Positions 21,047-30,238 of a DNA stretch of 64,000 nt are shown piece after piece. The notes beneath the pieces were generated by a model. It saw only the letters and a list, made by a program, of their open reading frames with translations. It searched no databases and was not told the origin of the DNA. This DNA is from Microbacterium pumilum (lineage in GTDB: Bacteria; Actinomycetota; Actinomycetes; Actinomycetales; Microbacteriaceae), in contig NZ_BAAAOH010000001.1 in the NCBI RefSeq assembly GCF_039530225.1, positions 3,906,001-3,970,000 on the forward strand, read 5' to 3'. The translations under genes were made by a program, and so were the position numbers. Each line of letters begins with the position of its first letter. The first letter of the stretch is position 1.

Positions 21047-22444
21047 ATGGGGCGCGTGGTGGATGCCCAGGTGCGCAACGGCGAGGTCTCGTGGTGGTGG
21101 CGGCAGCTCGGCGGTGCGCCGGCGGTGCGCGCCCCGCTGGGCGGGTCGACGGATGCGGATGTCGCGATCATCGGCGCCGGCTACACGGGCCTGTGGACCG
21201 CGTACTACCTGAAGCGCGCGCAGCCCGACTTGCGGATCTTCGTGCTCGAGCAGCGCTTCTCCGGGTTCGGCGCTTCCGGCCGCAACGGCGGCTGGCTCAC
21301 GAACTCGGTCACGGGTGGGCGCGAGCGCTACGAGAAGTCCCACGGGCGGGATGCCGCCATCGCACATCAGCGAGCGCTCAACGAGACCGTCGACGAGGTG
21401 ATCGCGGTCACGGCGCGCGAGGGCATCGCGGCCGACATCGTCAAGGGCGGCGAGGTCTCGGTCGCCCGAACCCCGTCCCAGCTCGCCCGCCTGACGGACT
21501 GGGCTGGCGCAGAGCAGGCGTGGCCGCACACCGACCTCGAGGTGTGGGATGCCGGCGACACCGCCCGCCGCATCCTCATCGACGGCGCACTCGGCTCGGC
21601 GTGGCATCCGCACGCTGCACGCATCCATCCCGCGAAGCTCGTCTCCGGCCTCGCCGCCGCTGTCGAGCGGATGGGCGTCACGATCTTCGAAGGCACCCGG
21701 GTGTCGGAGATCGCTCCCGGTCGCGCGGTGACCGATCGCGGCACAGTGCGCGCCACCTTCGTGCTGCGTGCCACGGAGGGCTTCACGGCCGACCTCGCGG
21801 GCGAGCACCGCACATGGCTGCCGATGAACTCGTCGATGATCGCGACAGCGCCGCTGCCCGCCGCCGTCTGGCAGCAGATCGGCTGGTCGGGGCGCGAGGT
21901 CGTCGGCGACATGGCGCACGTGTACATGTACGCGCAGCGGACCGCCGATGACCGGATCGCTTTCGGCGGGCGCGGCGTCCCCTACCGCTTCGGTTCGCGC
22001 GTCGACGCCGATGGCCGGACGCAGCAGCGGACCATCGCATCGCTCTCCGCGTTCCTGCGCGACTTCTTCCCCGCTGCGGCCGACGTGCCGATCGAACATG
22101 CCTGGGCGGGGGTGCTGGGGGTTCCGCGGGACTGGGCCGCGACGGTGGGGCTGGACGCCGCCACCGGCGTCGGCTGGGCGGGCGGATACGTCGGCACGGG
22201 CGTCACGGCCACGAACCTCGCCGGACGCACGCTCGCCGACCTGGTCCTGCGTCGCGACACCGCCCTCGCTCGCCTGCCGTGGGTCGCGCACCGCGCGAAG
22301 CGCTGGGAGGTCGAACCGCTGCGCTGGCTCGCGGTCAAGACGATCTACACCGCGTATCACGCGGCTGATCGGGCGGAGGCATCCGGTTCGTCGGATCGCA
22401 CGTCGGTCTTCGCGAAGGCGGCAGACCTGATCGCCGGGCGCTGA
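21047..22444 (+). CDS. FAD-dependent oxidoreductase (DAO family, gamma-glutamylputrescine oxidase-like)
   Basis: 465 residues of the DAO superfamily. The Rossmann motif DVAIIGAGYTGLWTAYYLKRAQPDL is followed by EQRFSGFGASGRNGGWLTN, the signature of PuuB/OrdL-like amine oxidoreductases. The C-terminal GYVGTGVTATNLAGRTLADLVL closes the FAD site. An open frame runs upstream to a GTG at 21014, but that start would lie inside the 78-bp repeat; ATG 21047 after a G-rich ribosome site is preferred. Located beside PucR, gabT and the amine oxidase, it probably deaminates a polyamine derivative. The substrate is inferred from family and context. Confidence 0.85.
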   Translation: MGRVVDAQVRNGEVSWWWRQLGGAPAVRAPLGGSTDADVAIIGAGYTGLWTAYYLKRAQPDLRIFVLEQRFSGFGASGRNGGWLTNSVTGGRERYEKSHGRDAAIAHQRALNETVDEVIAVTAREGIAADIVKGGEVSVARTPSQLARLTDWAGAEQAWPHTDLEVWDAGDTARRILIDGALGSAWHPHAARIHPAKLVSGLAAAVERMGVTIFEGTRVSEIAPGRAVTDRGTVRATFVLRATEGFTADLAGEHRTWLPMNSSMIATAPLPAAVWQQIGWSGREVVGDMAHVYMYAQRTADDRIAFGGRGVPYRFGSRVDADGRTQQRTIASLSAFLRDFFPAAADVPIEHAWAGVLGVPRDWAATVGLDAATGVGWAGGYVGTGVTATNLAGRTLADLVLRRDTALARLPWVAHRAKRWEVEPLRWLAVKTIYTAYHAADRAEASGSSDRTSVFAKAADLIAGR

Positions 22445-22528
22445 CTGACACTGCCATGATGAACCTGTGGATCTCGACTGCGACGCCTCGATCGCTTGAA
22501 CTTCGCACCGGCGGTCACCGCGCCGTGG

Positions 22529-24007
22529 TCAGACCGGCGCGTGCGCCTCCAGGAATTCGTACACATCGGTCGTGTCCACCCCGGGAAACGCCCCGGTCGG
22601 AAGGGTCGCGAGCAGCGTGCGCGGGGTGCGCACATTGGGCCACGAGTTGTCTCGCCAAGCGGCCTCGAGCTCCGCGGGAGCCCGGCGGCAGCACACCTCG
22701 ACCGAGTGCTTCGACACGCCGCGATTGGGCGTATCGCGCCCGAGGAACCACTTCGTGTCGTCGAACCGGACACCGACTGAAACGGAGTTGGCGCCCTCGC
22801 TCGACGACTCGACGCGCGCCGTGCACCAGTACGTCCCGTTGCCGGTGTCGGTGTACTGGTAGTACGGGTTGAAGTGATCGTCGACGTCGAAGACCACCCG
22901 CGACGTCCACCTGCGGCAGCACATCTGGCCCTCGATCGCACCGAGCCGGTCGGCCGGGAAGTTGACGTCGTCGTTCTCGTACGCCTTCGTGATGGTGCCC
23001 GACTCGTGCACCTTGAGGAAGTGCACCGGGATGCCGAGATGCACCGATGCGAGATTCGTGAAGCGATGCGCCGCCGTCTCGTACGAGACCGAGTACGCAT
23101 CGCGAAGGTCTTCGATCGAGATCGCCCGATCGCGCTTCGCGTCCTTCAGGAACGGCACCGCGTGCGCCTCGGGAATGAGCAGCGCACCCGTCAGGTAGTT
23201 CGTCTCGACACGCTAGCGGAGGAACTCGGCATAGCTCGTCGGCTCGCTGTGGCCCAGCATCCGACTCGACAGCGCCTGCAGCACCGCAGTTCGCGGATCA
23301 CCCTTCGACGTCAGCCGGCTCGACAGGTACAGCCGGCCGTTCTTGATGTCGGCGACGCTGCGAGTGGTCTGCGGCAGATCGGGCACGTAGTGCAGCGTGA
23401 ATCCGAGGTGCGCGGCGATGTCGGATGCCGTGCGCTGGGTCAGCGGACCGCCGGGGTGGTCGACGGCACCGAGGATCCGTCGTGCCTGCTCCTCGAGGTC
23501 GGGGAAGTAGTTGTTCTGGGTGCGCATCAGCTTGCGGAGCGCGACGTTGGCCCGGCGCGCCTCTTCGGGGGTGGCAGCGCGCTCGTCGCGAAGCCGCTCG
23601 ATCTCGCCCTGCAACGCCAGCATCGCCTTGAGCGCCTCGGTCGGCACCGTCTTGCCGACGCGGAACGGCGGGATGCCAAGCGCCTGGAACGTCTGACCGC
23701 GCATGGCGCGCTCCAGTCCTATCTCGAGCGTCGCGCGCTCGCCGAGAGGTTCCGACTCGAGGAGCGCATCCAGCGTCGTGCCGAGTGCGCGCGCGATCGC
23801 GCGGAGCAGCGTGAGCTTGGCCTCGCGCCGTCCGTTCTCGATCATCGAGAGCTGACTCGGAGCGCGGTCGACCGCTGTCGCAAGCTCCTCGAGCGTCATG
23901 CTGCGCTCGGTGCGGAGTTGGCGGATGCGGCGGCCGATCGTCAATGAGTCCACTTCCTCATCGTCGGTGAGCGGGGCGATGTTTCCGTGAGGCAGCGCTG
24001 TGGACAT
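22529..24007 (-). pseudogene. ramB: RamB-type XRE regulator of acetate/glyoxylate metabolism, split by an in-frame TAG
   Basis: One reading frame of 492 codons interrupted by a single TAG at 23213-23215. The first part (264 residues) has an XRE helix-turn-helix (IGRRIRQLRTERSMTLEELATAVDRAPSQLSMIENGRRE, residues 24-62) and an IrrE/ImmA-like domain. After the TAG the same frame continues RVETNYLTGALLIPEAHAVPFLKDAK and the C-terminal short-chain fatty acyl regulator domain, including the Cys-rich CCRRWTSRVVFDV segment. RamB homologues carry Gln at the stop position (FLRQRVETNY), so a single CAG to TAG change explains it. An internal ATG at 23158 could restart the second half. RamB controls aceA/aceB in corynebacteria; aceA is divergent here. 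Confidence 0.85.
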
Positions 24008-24040
24008 GACGGCATTCTCTCACAGGAGCAGAAATATGCC

Positions 24041-24083
24041 TGAACTTCACGTCCGAATCGGCGAGGGATGTCGGGGAAGTTCA
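24041..24083. promoter_or_regulatory. inverted repeat in the ramB/aceA divergent promoter region
   Basis: TGAACTTC (24041-24048) and its exact reverse complement GAAGTTCA (24076-24083) are spaced 35 bases centre to centre, 85 bases before the aceA start. This could be a regulator site, though the arms are short and do not obviously match the corynebacterial RamB box. Confidence 0.35.
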
Positions 24084-24110
24084 CTCAGAGTGGTCATACG
24101 AGCACCCGCC

Positions 24111-24129
24111 CGCTTCGACAGCCTCAGCG
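24111..24129 (+). repeat. copy 3 of the dispersed repeat (aceA leader)
   Basis: CGCTTCGACAGCCTCAGCG is a diverged copy of the CCCTTCGACAGGCTCAGGG motif, 38 bases upstream of the aceA start codon. Confidence 0.5.
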
Positions 24130-24167
24130 ACCGAGAACTGCCGCGGCATCCGAGAAGGAGACCCGAC

Positions 24168-25484
24168 ATGACGATCCACTCCACCCCCGGCCACCCCCCG
24201 CTCCGTGCGGGCGACCAGACGCAGACCGCGGCGGAGCTCCTGGAGATCTGGGAGACCGACCCGCGGTGGGACGGCATCGAGCGCACGTACACCGCCGAGG
24301 ATGTCATCGCGCTCCGGGGCTCGGTGCGCGAAGATTCCACCCTCGCGCAGCGTGGCGCGGAGAGCCTGTGGAACCTCGTCAACACGGAGGACTATGTGCG
24401 CGCACTCGGCGCGTACACCGGCGGTCAGGCGGTGCAGCAGGTGCGAGCCGGCCTCAAGGCGATCTACCTGTCCGGGTGGCAGGTCGCCGCCGACGGCAAC
24501 CTCGCCGGCCAGACCTACCCCGACCAGAGTCTGTACCCCGCGAACTCGGTGCCGGCCGTCGTGCGTCGAATCAACAACGCGCTCCTGCGCCAGGACCAGA
24601 TCGAGCACGCCGAAGGCGAACTCACCCAGGACTGGCTCGCCCCGATCGTGGCTGATGCCGAGGCCGGCTTCGGAGGGCCGCTGAACGCGTACGAGCTCGC
24701 GCACTCCCTCATCCAGGCCGGCGCTGCCGCCATCCACTGGGAGGACCAGCTCGCGAGCGAGAAGAAGTGCGGCCACCTCGGCGGCAAGGTTCTGGTGCCG
24801 ACACAGCAGCACATCCGGACGCTCAACGCGTCGCGGCTCGCCGCCGACGTCGCCGGCGTGCCGACGGTCATCATCGCCCGCACGGACGCTCTCGCTGCCG
24901 ACCTGCTCACCAGCGACGTCGACGAGCGCGACCGCGAGTTCACGACCGGCGAGCGCACTCCCGAGGGCTTCTATCGCGTCCGGCCCGGTCTCGACGCGGT
25001 GATCAGCCGCGGCCTGGCATTCGCACCGTACGCCGACCTGCTGTGGGTCGAGACGGGCGAGCCCGACATCGAACTTGCCCGCGCGTTCGCTGCGGCCATC
25101 CACGCGCAGTACCCGGGCAAGCTGCTCGCGTACAACTGCTCGCCCAGCTTCAACTGGAAGCGCCACCTCGACGATCGGCAGATCGCGACCTTCCAGCAGG
25201 AGCTGGCGGATCTGGGCTACAAGTTCCAGTTCATCACCCTGGCGGGCTTCCACGCCCTGAACCACTCGATGTTCGACCTCGCTCACGGCTACGCCGAACG
25301 CGCCATGAGCGCGTACGTCGAGCTGCAGGAGGCCGAGTTCGCGTCAGAAGCTCGCGGCTACACCGCCACAAAGCACCAGCGGGAGGCCGGAACCGGCTAC
25401 TTCGACCGCGTATCGACGGCGCTCAACCCTGAGAGCGCCACCCTCGCCCTGGTGGGATCCACCGAGGCCCAGCAGTTCCACTGA
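24168..25484 (+). CDS. aceA: isocitrate lyase
   Basis: 438 residues, the size of actinobacterial ICL1. It cleaves isocitrate to glyoxylate and succinate, the first step of the glyoxylate shunt. The catalytic-cysteine motif [14 protein letters not shown] is intact, as are [24 protein letters not shown] and [17 protein letters not shown] 24168 has a strong GAAGGAG ribosome site 7 bases upstream. The malate synthase gene follows after a 102-base gap that contains a large inverted repeat. The divergent ramB-type gene is its expected regulator. Confidence 0.98.
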
Positions 25485-25491
25485 CCCCCAA

Positions 25492-25550
25492 TCCATGTCC
25501 CGATTTCCCTCGGCTCCGACGATGCAGACCGAGGGATTTCGGGACATGGA
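25492..25550. terminator. large hairpin between aceA and aceB
   Basis: 22-base arms (25492-25513 and 25529-25550) are complementary except for a 3-base mismatch (ATTT against AAAT), with a 15-base loop. The stem starts 8 bases after the aceA stop and ends 37 bases before aceB. It could terminate or attenuate aceA transcripts so that aceA and aceB are expressed at different levels, or protect the aceA mRNA 3' end. Confidence 0.65.
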
Positions 25551-25586
25551 TGGCGGGACACACCCTCACACAGACAGGACAATGCC

Positions 25587-27299
25587 ATGACCATCACCGA
25601 CACGGGCTCACCGCCCACGACCAGTCCCCTCCACGCTTCGACAAGCTCAGGGACCTTCACCGGACCGATCGCGACGCACCAGCCGACGATCGAGATCCTC
25701 GGCGCGGTCCGCGACCGCTACGACGAGATCCTCACACCCGACGCGATCGCGTTCCTCACCGCGCTGCACGACCGCTTCTCGGCGCGACGATACGACCGCC
25801 TCGCCGACCGGATGCGCACGCGCTTCGAGGTCGGCATCGGCCGCGACCCGAGGTTCCGCGACGAGACCGCCCACATCCGAGAGGATGCCGAATGGCAGGT
25901 CGCGGGCGCCGCCCCGGGACTCGAGGACCGACGCGTCGAGATCACCGGACCGACTGACCCGAAGATGACGATCAACGCGCTGAATTCCGGCGCGAAGGTC
26001 TGGCTCGCCGACCAGGAGGACGCCACGAGCCCCACCTGGAAGAACGTCATCGAGGGGCAGCTGTCACTGCGTGACGCGATCCGAGGCGAACTCAGCTTCA
26101 CGAGTCCCGAGGGCAAAGTGTACGAAGTCACCGCCACCGAGACCCCCACGATCGTGATGCGGCCGCGCGGCTGGCACCTCGCGGAGCAGCACATCCGCTT
26201 CATCGACCGCTCCGGACGCCGGCTGTCGGCATCCGGTTCACTCGTCGACTTCGGCCTCTACTTCTTCCACAACGCCGAACGGCTGATCGCGAACGGTCGC
26301 GGCCCGTACTTCTATCTCGCGAAGCTCGAATCGAGCGAAGAGGCGCGGCTGTGGGACGACATCTTCGCCTTCAGCGAGGAGTACATCGGCATCCCGTACG
26401 GGACGATCCGCGCAACGGTGCTGATCGAGACGCTGCCCGCCGCGTTCGAGATGGACGAGATCCTCTTCGCGCTGCGCGATCACTGCGCGGGCCTGAACGC
26501 CGGGCGATGGGACTACATCTTCTCGATCATCAAGAACTACCGCGGACGCGGAGCGCGGTTCGTGCTGCCCGACCGCAGCGAGGTCACGATGACGGTGCCG
26601 TTCATGCGCGCCTACACCGACCTCCTCGTCAAGACGTGTCACCGCCGGGGCGCTTTCGCGATCGGGGGCATGAGCGCGTTCATCCCGAACCGGCGCGACC
26701 CCGAGGTCACCGCGCGCGCCTTCGAGAAGGTGGCGGCCGACAAGAAGCGCGAGGCCGGCGACGGCTTCGACGGCACGTGGGTCGCGCATCCCGACCTGAT
26801 CCCGGTGGCTCGCGCCGAGTTCGACGCCGTGCTGGGCGATCGGCCCAATCAGGTCGACCGGCAGCGCGACGACGTCGAGGTGAAGGCCTCGCAGCTGCTC
26901 GATGTGCACATCGGGCTGCCGGTGACCGCCGCGGGGGTGAAAGCGAACGTGTCGGTCGCGATCCGCTACCTCGAGGCGTGGCTGCGGGGCCTCGGCGCCG
27001 TCGCGATCGACAACCTCATGGAGGATGCCGCGACCGCGGAGATCTCTCGCTCACAGGTGTGGCAGTGGATCCATCAGGATCGCTCGACCGAGGGCGGCAC
27101 GCCCATCACGCGGGAGTACATCGAGCGGCTGATCGCCGAAGTGCTCAGCGAGGTGGAGCGCCGCGACCCTTCGACAGGCTCAGGGACGGACCGATTCGAC
27201 GATGCGGCTGACATCTTCCGCGAGGTGTCGCTGCGGGAGGAGTTCCCGGCGTTCCTGACGCTCACGGCCTATTCGCGCTACCTCGTCGACAGCGAATAG
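25587..27299 (+). CDS. aceB: malate synthase A
   Basis: 570 residues of the AceB type. It condenses glyoxylate with acetyl-CoA to malate. Segments typical of the family are LADQEDATSPTWKNVIEGQLSLRDAI, MRPRGWHLAEQHI, RATVLIETLPAAFEMDEILFAL, the signature LNAGRWDYIFSIIKNYR (usually NCGRWDY, so Cys is replaced by Ala) and FMRAYTDLLVKTCHRRGAFAIGGMSAFIP. The C-terminal loop holds the catalytic Asp in NLMEDAATAEISRSQ. Two dispersed-repeat copies lie inside the gene, near codons 16-22 and 527-532, both encoding Ser/Thr/Gly-rich loops. Confidence 0.98.
   Translation: MTITDTGSPPTTSPLHASTSSGTFTGPIATHQPTIEILGAVRDRYDEILTPDAIAFLTALHDRFSARRYDRLADRMRTRFEVGIGRDPRFRDETAHIREDAEWQVAGAAPGLEDRRVEITGPTDPKMTINALNSGAKVWLADQEDATSPTWKNVIEGQLSLRDAIRGELSFTSPEGKVYEVTATETPTIVMRPRGWHLAEQHIRFIDRSGRRLSASGSLVDFGLYFFHNAERLIANGRGPYFYLAKLESSEEARLWDDIFAFSEEYIGIPYGTIRATVLIETLPAAFEMDEILFALRDHCAGLNAGRWDYIFSIIKNYRGRGARFVLPDRSEVTMTVPFMRAYTDLLVKTCHRRGAFAIGGMSAFIPNRRDPEVTARAFEKVAADKKREAGDGFDGTWVAHPDLIPVARAEFDAVLGDRPNQVDRQRDDVEVKASQLLDVHIGLPVTAAGVKANVSVAIRYLEAWLRGLGAVAIDNLMEDAATAEISRSQVWQWIHQDRSTEGGTPITREYIERLIAEVLSEVERRDPSTGSGTDRFDDAADIFREVSLREEFPAFLTLTAYSRYLVDSE
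25634..25652 (+). repeat. copy 4 of the dispersed repeat, in the 5' part of aceB
   Basis: CGCTTCGACAAGCTCAGGG, in frame, encodes A-S-T-S-S-G within the unstructured N-terminus of malate synthase. Confidence 0.7.
27167..27185 (+). repeat. copy 5 of the dispersed repeat, near the 3' end of aceB
   Basis: An exact CCCTTCGACAGGCTCAGGG, in frame, encodes P-S-T-G-S-G between a C-terminal helix (VLSEVERRD) and TDRFDDAADIF of malate synthase. Confidence 0.85.
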
Positions 27300-29833: not shown

Positions 29834-30238
29834 TCAGGCGAGGCGGATGCGCACCTGCGCCTTGACGAGCACCGTGGCTTCCTCGAACGTCACGGTCAGG
29901 TCGATGCGAGCCGTCTCGTCGTCGACGGCACCGACCCTGGCGAGGACCGACACGTCGGCACCGGCATCCGGATCGACGACGACGGGCCGGGTGAACCGCA
30001 CGCCGTAATCGAGGATGCGGCCGACATCACCGAGCCACGGCACGATCGTCTGCACGGCGAGCCCCATCGTCAGCATGCCGTGGGCGAGGACCCCAGGCAG
30101 CCCGACGGCTGCGGCTACGTCGTCGCGGTAGTGGATGGGGTTGAAGTCCCCGGACGCGCCGGCGTAGCGCACCAAGGACTCGCGGCTGAGGTGGACGGTG
30201 CGCTCGGCGACCACATCGCCGACGGCGAGGGCACTCAT
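29834..30238 (-). CDS. MaoC-like (R)-hydratase / dehydratase (HadB type)
   Basis: 134 residues with the hot-dog hydratase motif YAGASGDFNPIHYRDDVAAAVGLPGVLAHGMLTMG, containing the catalytic Asp and His. In mycobacteria the HadAB complex dehydrates 3-hydroxyacyl-ACP in fatty acid synthase II; without mycolic acids in this lineage the substrate is less clear. The ATG overlaps the upstream gene stop by 4 bases, so the pair is coupled and probably forms a heterodimer. Confidence 0.9.
   Translation of the reverse strand: MSALAVGDVVAERTVHLSRESLVRYAGASGDFNPIHYRDDVAAAVGLPGVLAHGMLTMGLAVQTIVPWLGDVGRILDYGVRFTRPVVVDPDAGADVSVLARVGAVDDETARIDLTVTFEEATVLVKAQVRIRLA

Follow-up and report, generated by a model that had tools for sequence, protein, structure and literature searches.

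RamB represses aceA in Corynebacterium glutamicum, and in Mycobacterium tuberculosis RamB represses icl1 while PrpR activates it. For PrpR of M. tuberculosis, PMC6765138 describes a middle domain contributing to the coenzyme A (CoA) pocket, a C-terminal region that contacts the neighbouring chain and, in PrpR homologues, a C-X2-C-X4-C [4Fe4S] motif. Here we analyse a 64,000-nucleotide stretch of the Microbacterium pumilum genome (the window; positions 3906001-3970000 of a single-contig genome of 4.45 Mb, 99.99% complete), in which a regulator gene on the minus strand at 22529..24007, divergent from the glyoxylate-shunt genes aceA and aceB, is interrupted by one in-frame TAG. We consider it likely that a recent nonsense substitution, seen in one genome, has inactivated this ScfR/PrpR-like and probably acyl-CoA-sensing regulator. 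A search of a literature library found no paper joining Microbacterium, isocitrate lyase and RamB, and a search on ramB, nonsense mutation and C. glutamicum matched a report concerning a nonsense mutation in cat.

A single in-frame stop in a conserved regulator gene

The gene begins with an ATG at 24007 and runs for 264 codons to the TAG at 23215..23213, after which 227 open codons follow up to a stop at 22531..22529. The initial annotation had described an intact frame on either side of a single TAG (23213-23215), with the join FLR-stop-RVETNY at a site where related proteins carry Gln. The sequence bears out both frame and join, and Gln occupies the stop position in 120 of 120 proteins (the best 120 of 4627 homologues). 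At the nucleotide level all 110 loci outside the window agree, with CAG in 107 and CAA in 3; this set includes the genome's own paralogue and counts some assemblies twice (L004-L032 and L033-L112 partly overlap), and 94 of 110 sequences are distinct when the window's is included and the paralogue left out. These data support the proposal that a CAG to TAG transition is the simplest cause, since one C-to-T substitution in the coding strand suffices.

When translated with X at the stop, the frame aligns over its full length with single proteins of ~492 residues, the nearest at ~90% identity. This end-to-end match excludes two genes that abut by chance. Orthologues with 71% identity or more were recovered from 272 of 294 further Microbacterium genomes, near full length in 266 and partial in 6, and the matches in G091 and G250 look cut short. 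These orthologues are single proteins rather than pairs of separate ones, and none of the matches in the 272 genomes contains an internal stop, frameshifts not being counted as stops. The other 22 genomes comprise 18 with the paralogue only (~47-50% identity), two with a 55% match and two, both incomplete, without a match at 1e-100. The observation is thereby confirmed, and apart from its one in-frame stop the gene is intact and constrained.

The stop falls within the predicted pocket domain

The gene had been named ramB, an identity that the curated model for RamB of C. glutamicum and Rv0465c (NF038139) did not uphold. The regulator is of the same overall type as these proteins, and Rv0465c itself lies upstream of icl1, but read through it scores 53.5 bits where 700 are required. 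The intact relative P0002 also falls below this threshold (48.5 bits), as do, by a wide margin, the window gene (50 bits) and the paralogue (36.3 bits) in a whole-genome search. By its modelled fold the protein is a ScfR/PrpR-like regulator. The structural model has the PrpR fold at 16-20% identity to PrpR of M. tuberculosis (PDB 6CYJ/6CZ6/6D2S), and the layout is of the ScfR/PrpR type, with an IrrE-like middle domain and a GAF-like domain. The N-terminal XRE helix-turn-helix is recognised in the 264-residue half (PF01381, 53 bits, cut-off 23), and the ScfRs C-terminal domain PF09856 reaches 14.2-15.9 bits, below its curated cut-off of 24.

The regulator differs from PrpR in its neighbours, aceA and aceB instead of prpDC, and in lacking the C-X2-C-X4-C motif: in the sequences read, the C-terminal region holds just a CC pair at residues 439-440. 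Cysteines 364, 395, 439 and 440 (codons 22916-22918, 22823-22825 and 22688-22693, minus strand) are nevertheless unchanged in all 39 aligned sequences (alignment A3, paralogue included), with 363 nearly so, making a differently spaced metal site possible. The class 2 RamB of Paracoccus denitrificans offers a further likeness by its description in PMC10370305, where it is a ScfR-type protein listed beside aceA and aceB that binds CoA esters and activates the glyoxylate genes. The full-length Microbacterium regulator probably senses an acyl-CoA.

The break had been placed between a DNA-binding half and a ligand-sensing half, whereas it falls inside the middle domain. The N-terminal open frame (23213..24007; 264 residues and the TAG) contains the helix-turn-helix (~residues 24-85), a linker and the beginning of the IrrE-like middle domain. 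The premature TAG, codon 265 (23213..23215), is Gln in the relatives compared. The remaining open frame (22529..23212; 227 codons and a stop) holds the rest of the middle domain, the GAF-like domain and the C-terminal region with its conserved cysteines. In PrpR the middle domain helps to form the CoA pocket, so the stop cuts through the pocket itself, and in the structural model the cut passes mid-helix.

A recent mutation or an error in the assembly

No second sequence with the same stop was found among 120 of 165 matches listed, where the 264-residue protein appears once, as the entry for the window itself. We inspected seven further short proteins from the same list; six were frame-shifted and one differed only near its end, and none stops at codon 265. 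The frame-shifted copies of the regulator family in public protein sets (P0130, P0133, P0135, P0178, P0184 and P0225) include some on long contigs, and some are perhaps assembly errors.

To either side of the stop the gene looks constrained. Against eight near relatives, the ratio of non-synonymous to synonymous substitution rates (dN/dS) was 0.042-0.089 for the part after the stop (background median over 236 pairs, 0.058) and 0.085-0.117 for the part before it (background median 0.075). Two of the gene's own residues depart from sites conserved at 98% or more, a number equalled or exceeded by 30 of 120 relatives. Decay after the mutation was rejected, both measures lying within the background, and the absence of decay means that the stop is either very young or a consensus error.

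An error in the sequence or consensus, with the strain's gene intact and one assembly base wrong, is in our judgement unlikely. It would fit a stop shown by one genome only, in a gene whose remainder is fully constrained and where a single substitution is enough, and the frame-shifted public proteins, some of them perhaps misassembled, testify to faults of this kind in the data. The genome, however, is one contig at 99.99% completeness, and no other gene in the window could be shown to be broken, within an incomplete list of coding segments and a three-relative comparison covering ~29 kb. Three further same-frame abutments parted by one stop, at 29834, 33516 and 61646, were rejected as broken genes, each being two complete, unrelated proteins with different Pfam domains. 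Among 22 rows flagged as possibly broken in the window, three are the regulator gene, and two other stretches when read through look like upstream extensions or a wrong frame.

Several points weigh against a recent inactivating mutation. Readthrough or a sequencing error would also leave normal constraint after the stop; broken copies of the regulator gene exist in other public data (six of the seven other short proteins are frame-shifted), none at codon 265; the 264-residue product occurs once, on one contig only, among the matches listed; and the structural model has a mean predicted local distance difference test (pLDDT) score of 69.5. We nonetheless regard a recent, ordinary nonsense mutation in a single sequenced isolate as most likely.

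Restart and readthrough

Three outcomes had been offered for the interrupted gene, namely loss, a second polypeptide from an ATG at 23158, or readthrough of the stop. Our analysis favours the first and disfavours the other two, the restart site being at background level and no TAG-reading transfer RNA (tRNA) having been found. The codon at 23158 is in fact GTG (codon 284; 23156..23158, minus strand), and the first in-frame ATG past the stop lies at 22924. The GTG opens a 209-residue frame and has a GAGG element upstream, with slightly stronger predicted pairing (-5.9 kcal/mol) than at the gene's own start (-5.0 kcal/mol). A duplex of equal or greater strength is, however, available at 28% of in-frame positions in the gene, so the ribosome site cannot be distinguished from background and was rejected as no better than chance. 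A split but working regulator, with the N-terminal part and the restart product both made and acting together or apart, is very unlikely given this background, a cut that runs mid-helix through the pocket domain, the omission by the restart of 18 mostly conserved residues past the stop and the lack of any orthologue with an internal stop in the 272 genomes.

Readthrough of the TAG, yielding some full-length protein, would account for the constraint that persists in the downstream frame, but the youth of the mutation explains that constraint equally well. No anticodon CTA was present among 46 Rfam tRNA matches, a set that is not quite full as ARAGORN found one more near a match (anticodon TGC), and no Rfam RNA family matched within 22000-26000. 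We regard readthrough as improbable in the extreme.

Link to the glyoxylate shunt and a candidate operator

The assignment of aceA and aceB as neighbours held, both exceeding their NCBIfam cut-offs. aceA, an isocitrate lyase of the PRK15063 type (24168..25484, plus strand; 754.7 bits, cut-off 562), is divergent from the regulator gene and is followed by aceB, malate synthase A (25587..27299, plus strand; 710.2 bits, cut-off 594.5). Across relatives, aceB lies upstream on the opposite strand in 79 of 80 named loci, and in the remaining locus the contig ends 145 bases upstream. Neither aceA nor aceB was detected at 1e-60 in any of the 18 genomes that have the paralogue only (16 of 18 at least 90% complete); the aceA part of this joint absence is weaker, because the threshold misses a second isocitrate lyase type. 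Together these data suggest that the regulator gene probably controls the glyoxylate shunt.

The region between the regulator gene and aceA contains a candidate operator of two boxes on the plus strand, CTTCAC at 24045..24050 and, 34 base pairs (bp) from it, GTTCAC at 24079..24084, which departs from the common CTTC[AT]C at one base. Among 81 upstream regions, taken from the 80 named loci and the window, 51 have a CTTC[AT]C direct repeat at 34-bp spacing before aceA or aceB, compared with 0 to 4 regions for any other spacing between 26 and 43. In four other loci the best-placed second box has the same GTTCAC mismatch. Kinship inflates both controls used here, and that of other spacings is the fairer, as the shuffle control preserves base composition only and ignores relatedness. 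The full-length regulator may bind this repeat. A box followed by an RGTGG element was seen in 57 of the 81 regions. The inverted repeat TGAACTTC/GAAGTTCA between the two genes resembled an operator when the window was viewed by itself, but was rejected, its cores TGAAC/GTTCA not recurring at that spacing in the relatives scanned.

Predicted consequences of a probable regulator loss

Loss of function would be the simplest outcome of the stop. The 264-residue remainder would keep the helix-turn-helix, but the entire GAF-like domain, the C-terminal region and some of the pocket domain would be missing; we anticipate that it would be unstable or unresponsive, and that control of aceA and aceB would therefore be altered. 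Were the family to repress, in the manner of RamB in C. glutamicum and M. tuberculosis, its loss would derepress the shunt; were it to activate, in the manner of the class 2 RamB of P. denitrificans, growth on acetate would be impaired.

The genome's paralogue (L173 7922-9358, or G000:C1:2003921-2005357) shares 48% identity with P0002, the nearest intact orthologue, and has no internal stop. Its neighbours differ from those of the interrupted gene: it is divergent from a guanosine triphosphate-dependent phosphoenolpyruvate carboxykinase gene, and no CTTC[AT]C pair was seen by eye in its printed intergenic stretch. The position beside the carboxykinase gene suggests a second regulator of the ScfR/PrpR-like type, for gluconeogenesis, and one might speculate that it partly stands in for the interrupted one. 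A stop that has been fixed and selected, whether with the remainder acting as a ligand-blind binder of the 34-bp repeat or with the paralogue taking over, would lock the shunt on or off in the lineage; we think this quite improbable.

A recent nonsense mutation, the probable event here in a conserved regulator of known fold and in one genome, is as such ordinary. If confirmed, it would provide a natural null of a regulator that 272 of the 294 other Microbacterium genomes possess and could show whether the protein acts as repressor or activator in the glyoxylate shunt, a question that the candidate operator and the pattern of joint absence make testable in intact sister species. The main use of the locus is as a pointer to a ScfR-like branch of acyl-CoA-type regulators and to its candidate operator.

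Isocitrate lyase in related loci

Classical aceA is present in the window and in 34 of 80 named loci (L033-L112). In Microbacterium ulmi (L041), a sister species with an intact regulator gene, aceA and aceB are arranged as in the window. Many Microbacterium relatives are without it between the regulator gene and aceB, including G193 and G189, which hold the best-scoring orthologues. Downstream of aceB, G193 has an isocitrate lyase of another type (NF005074, 1035.6 bits, cut-off 446; L174 4898-6493).
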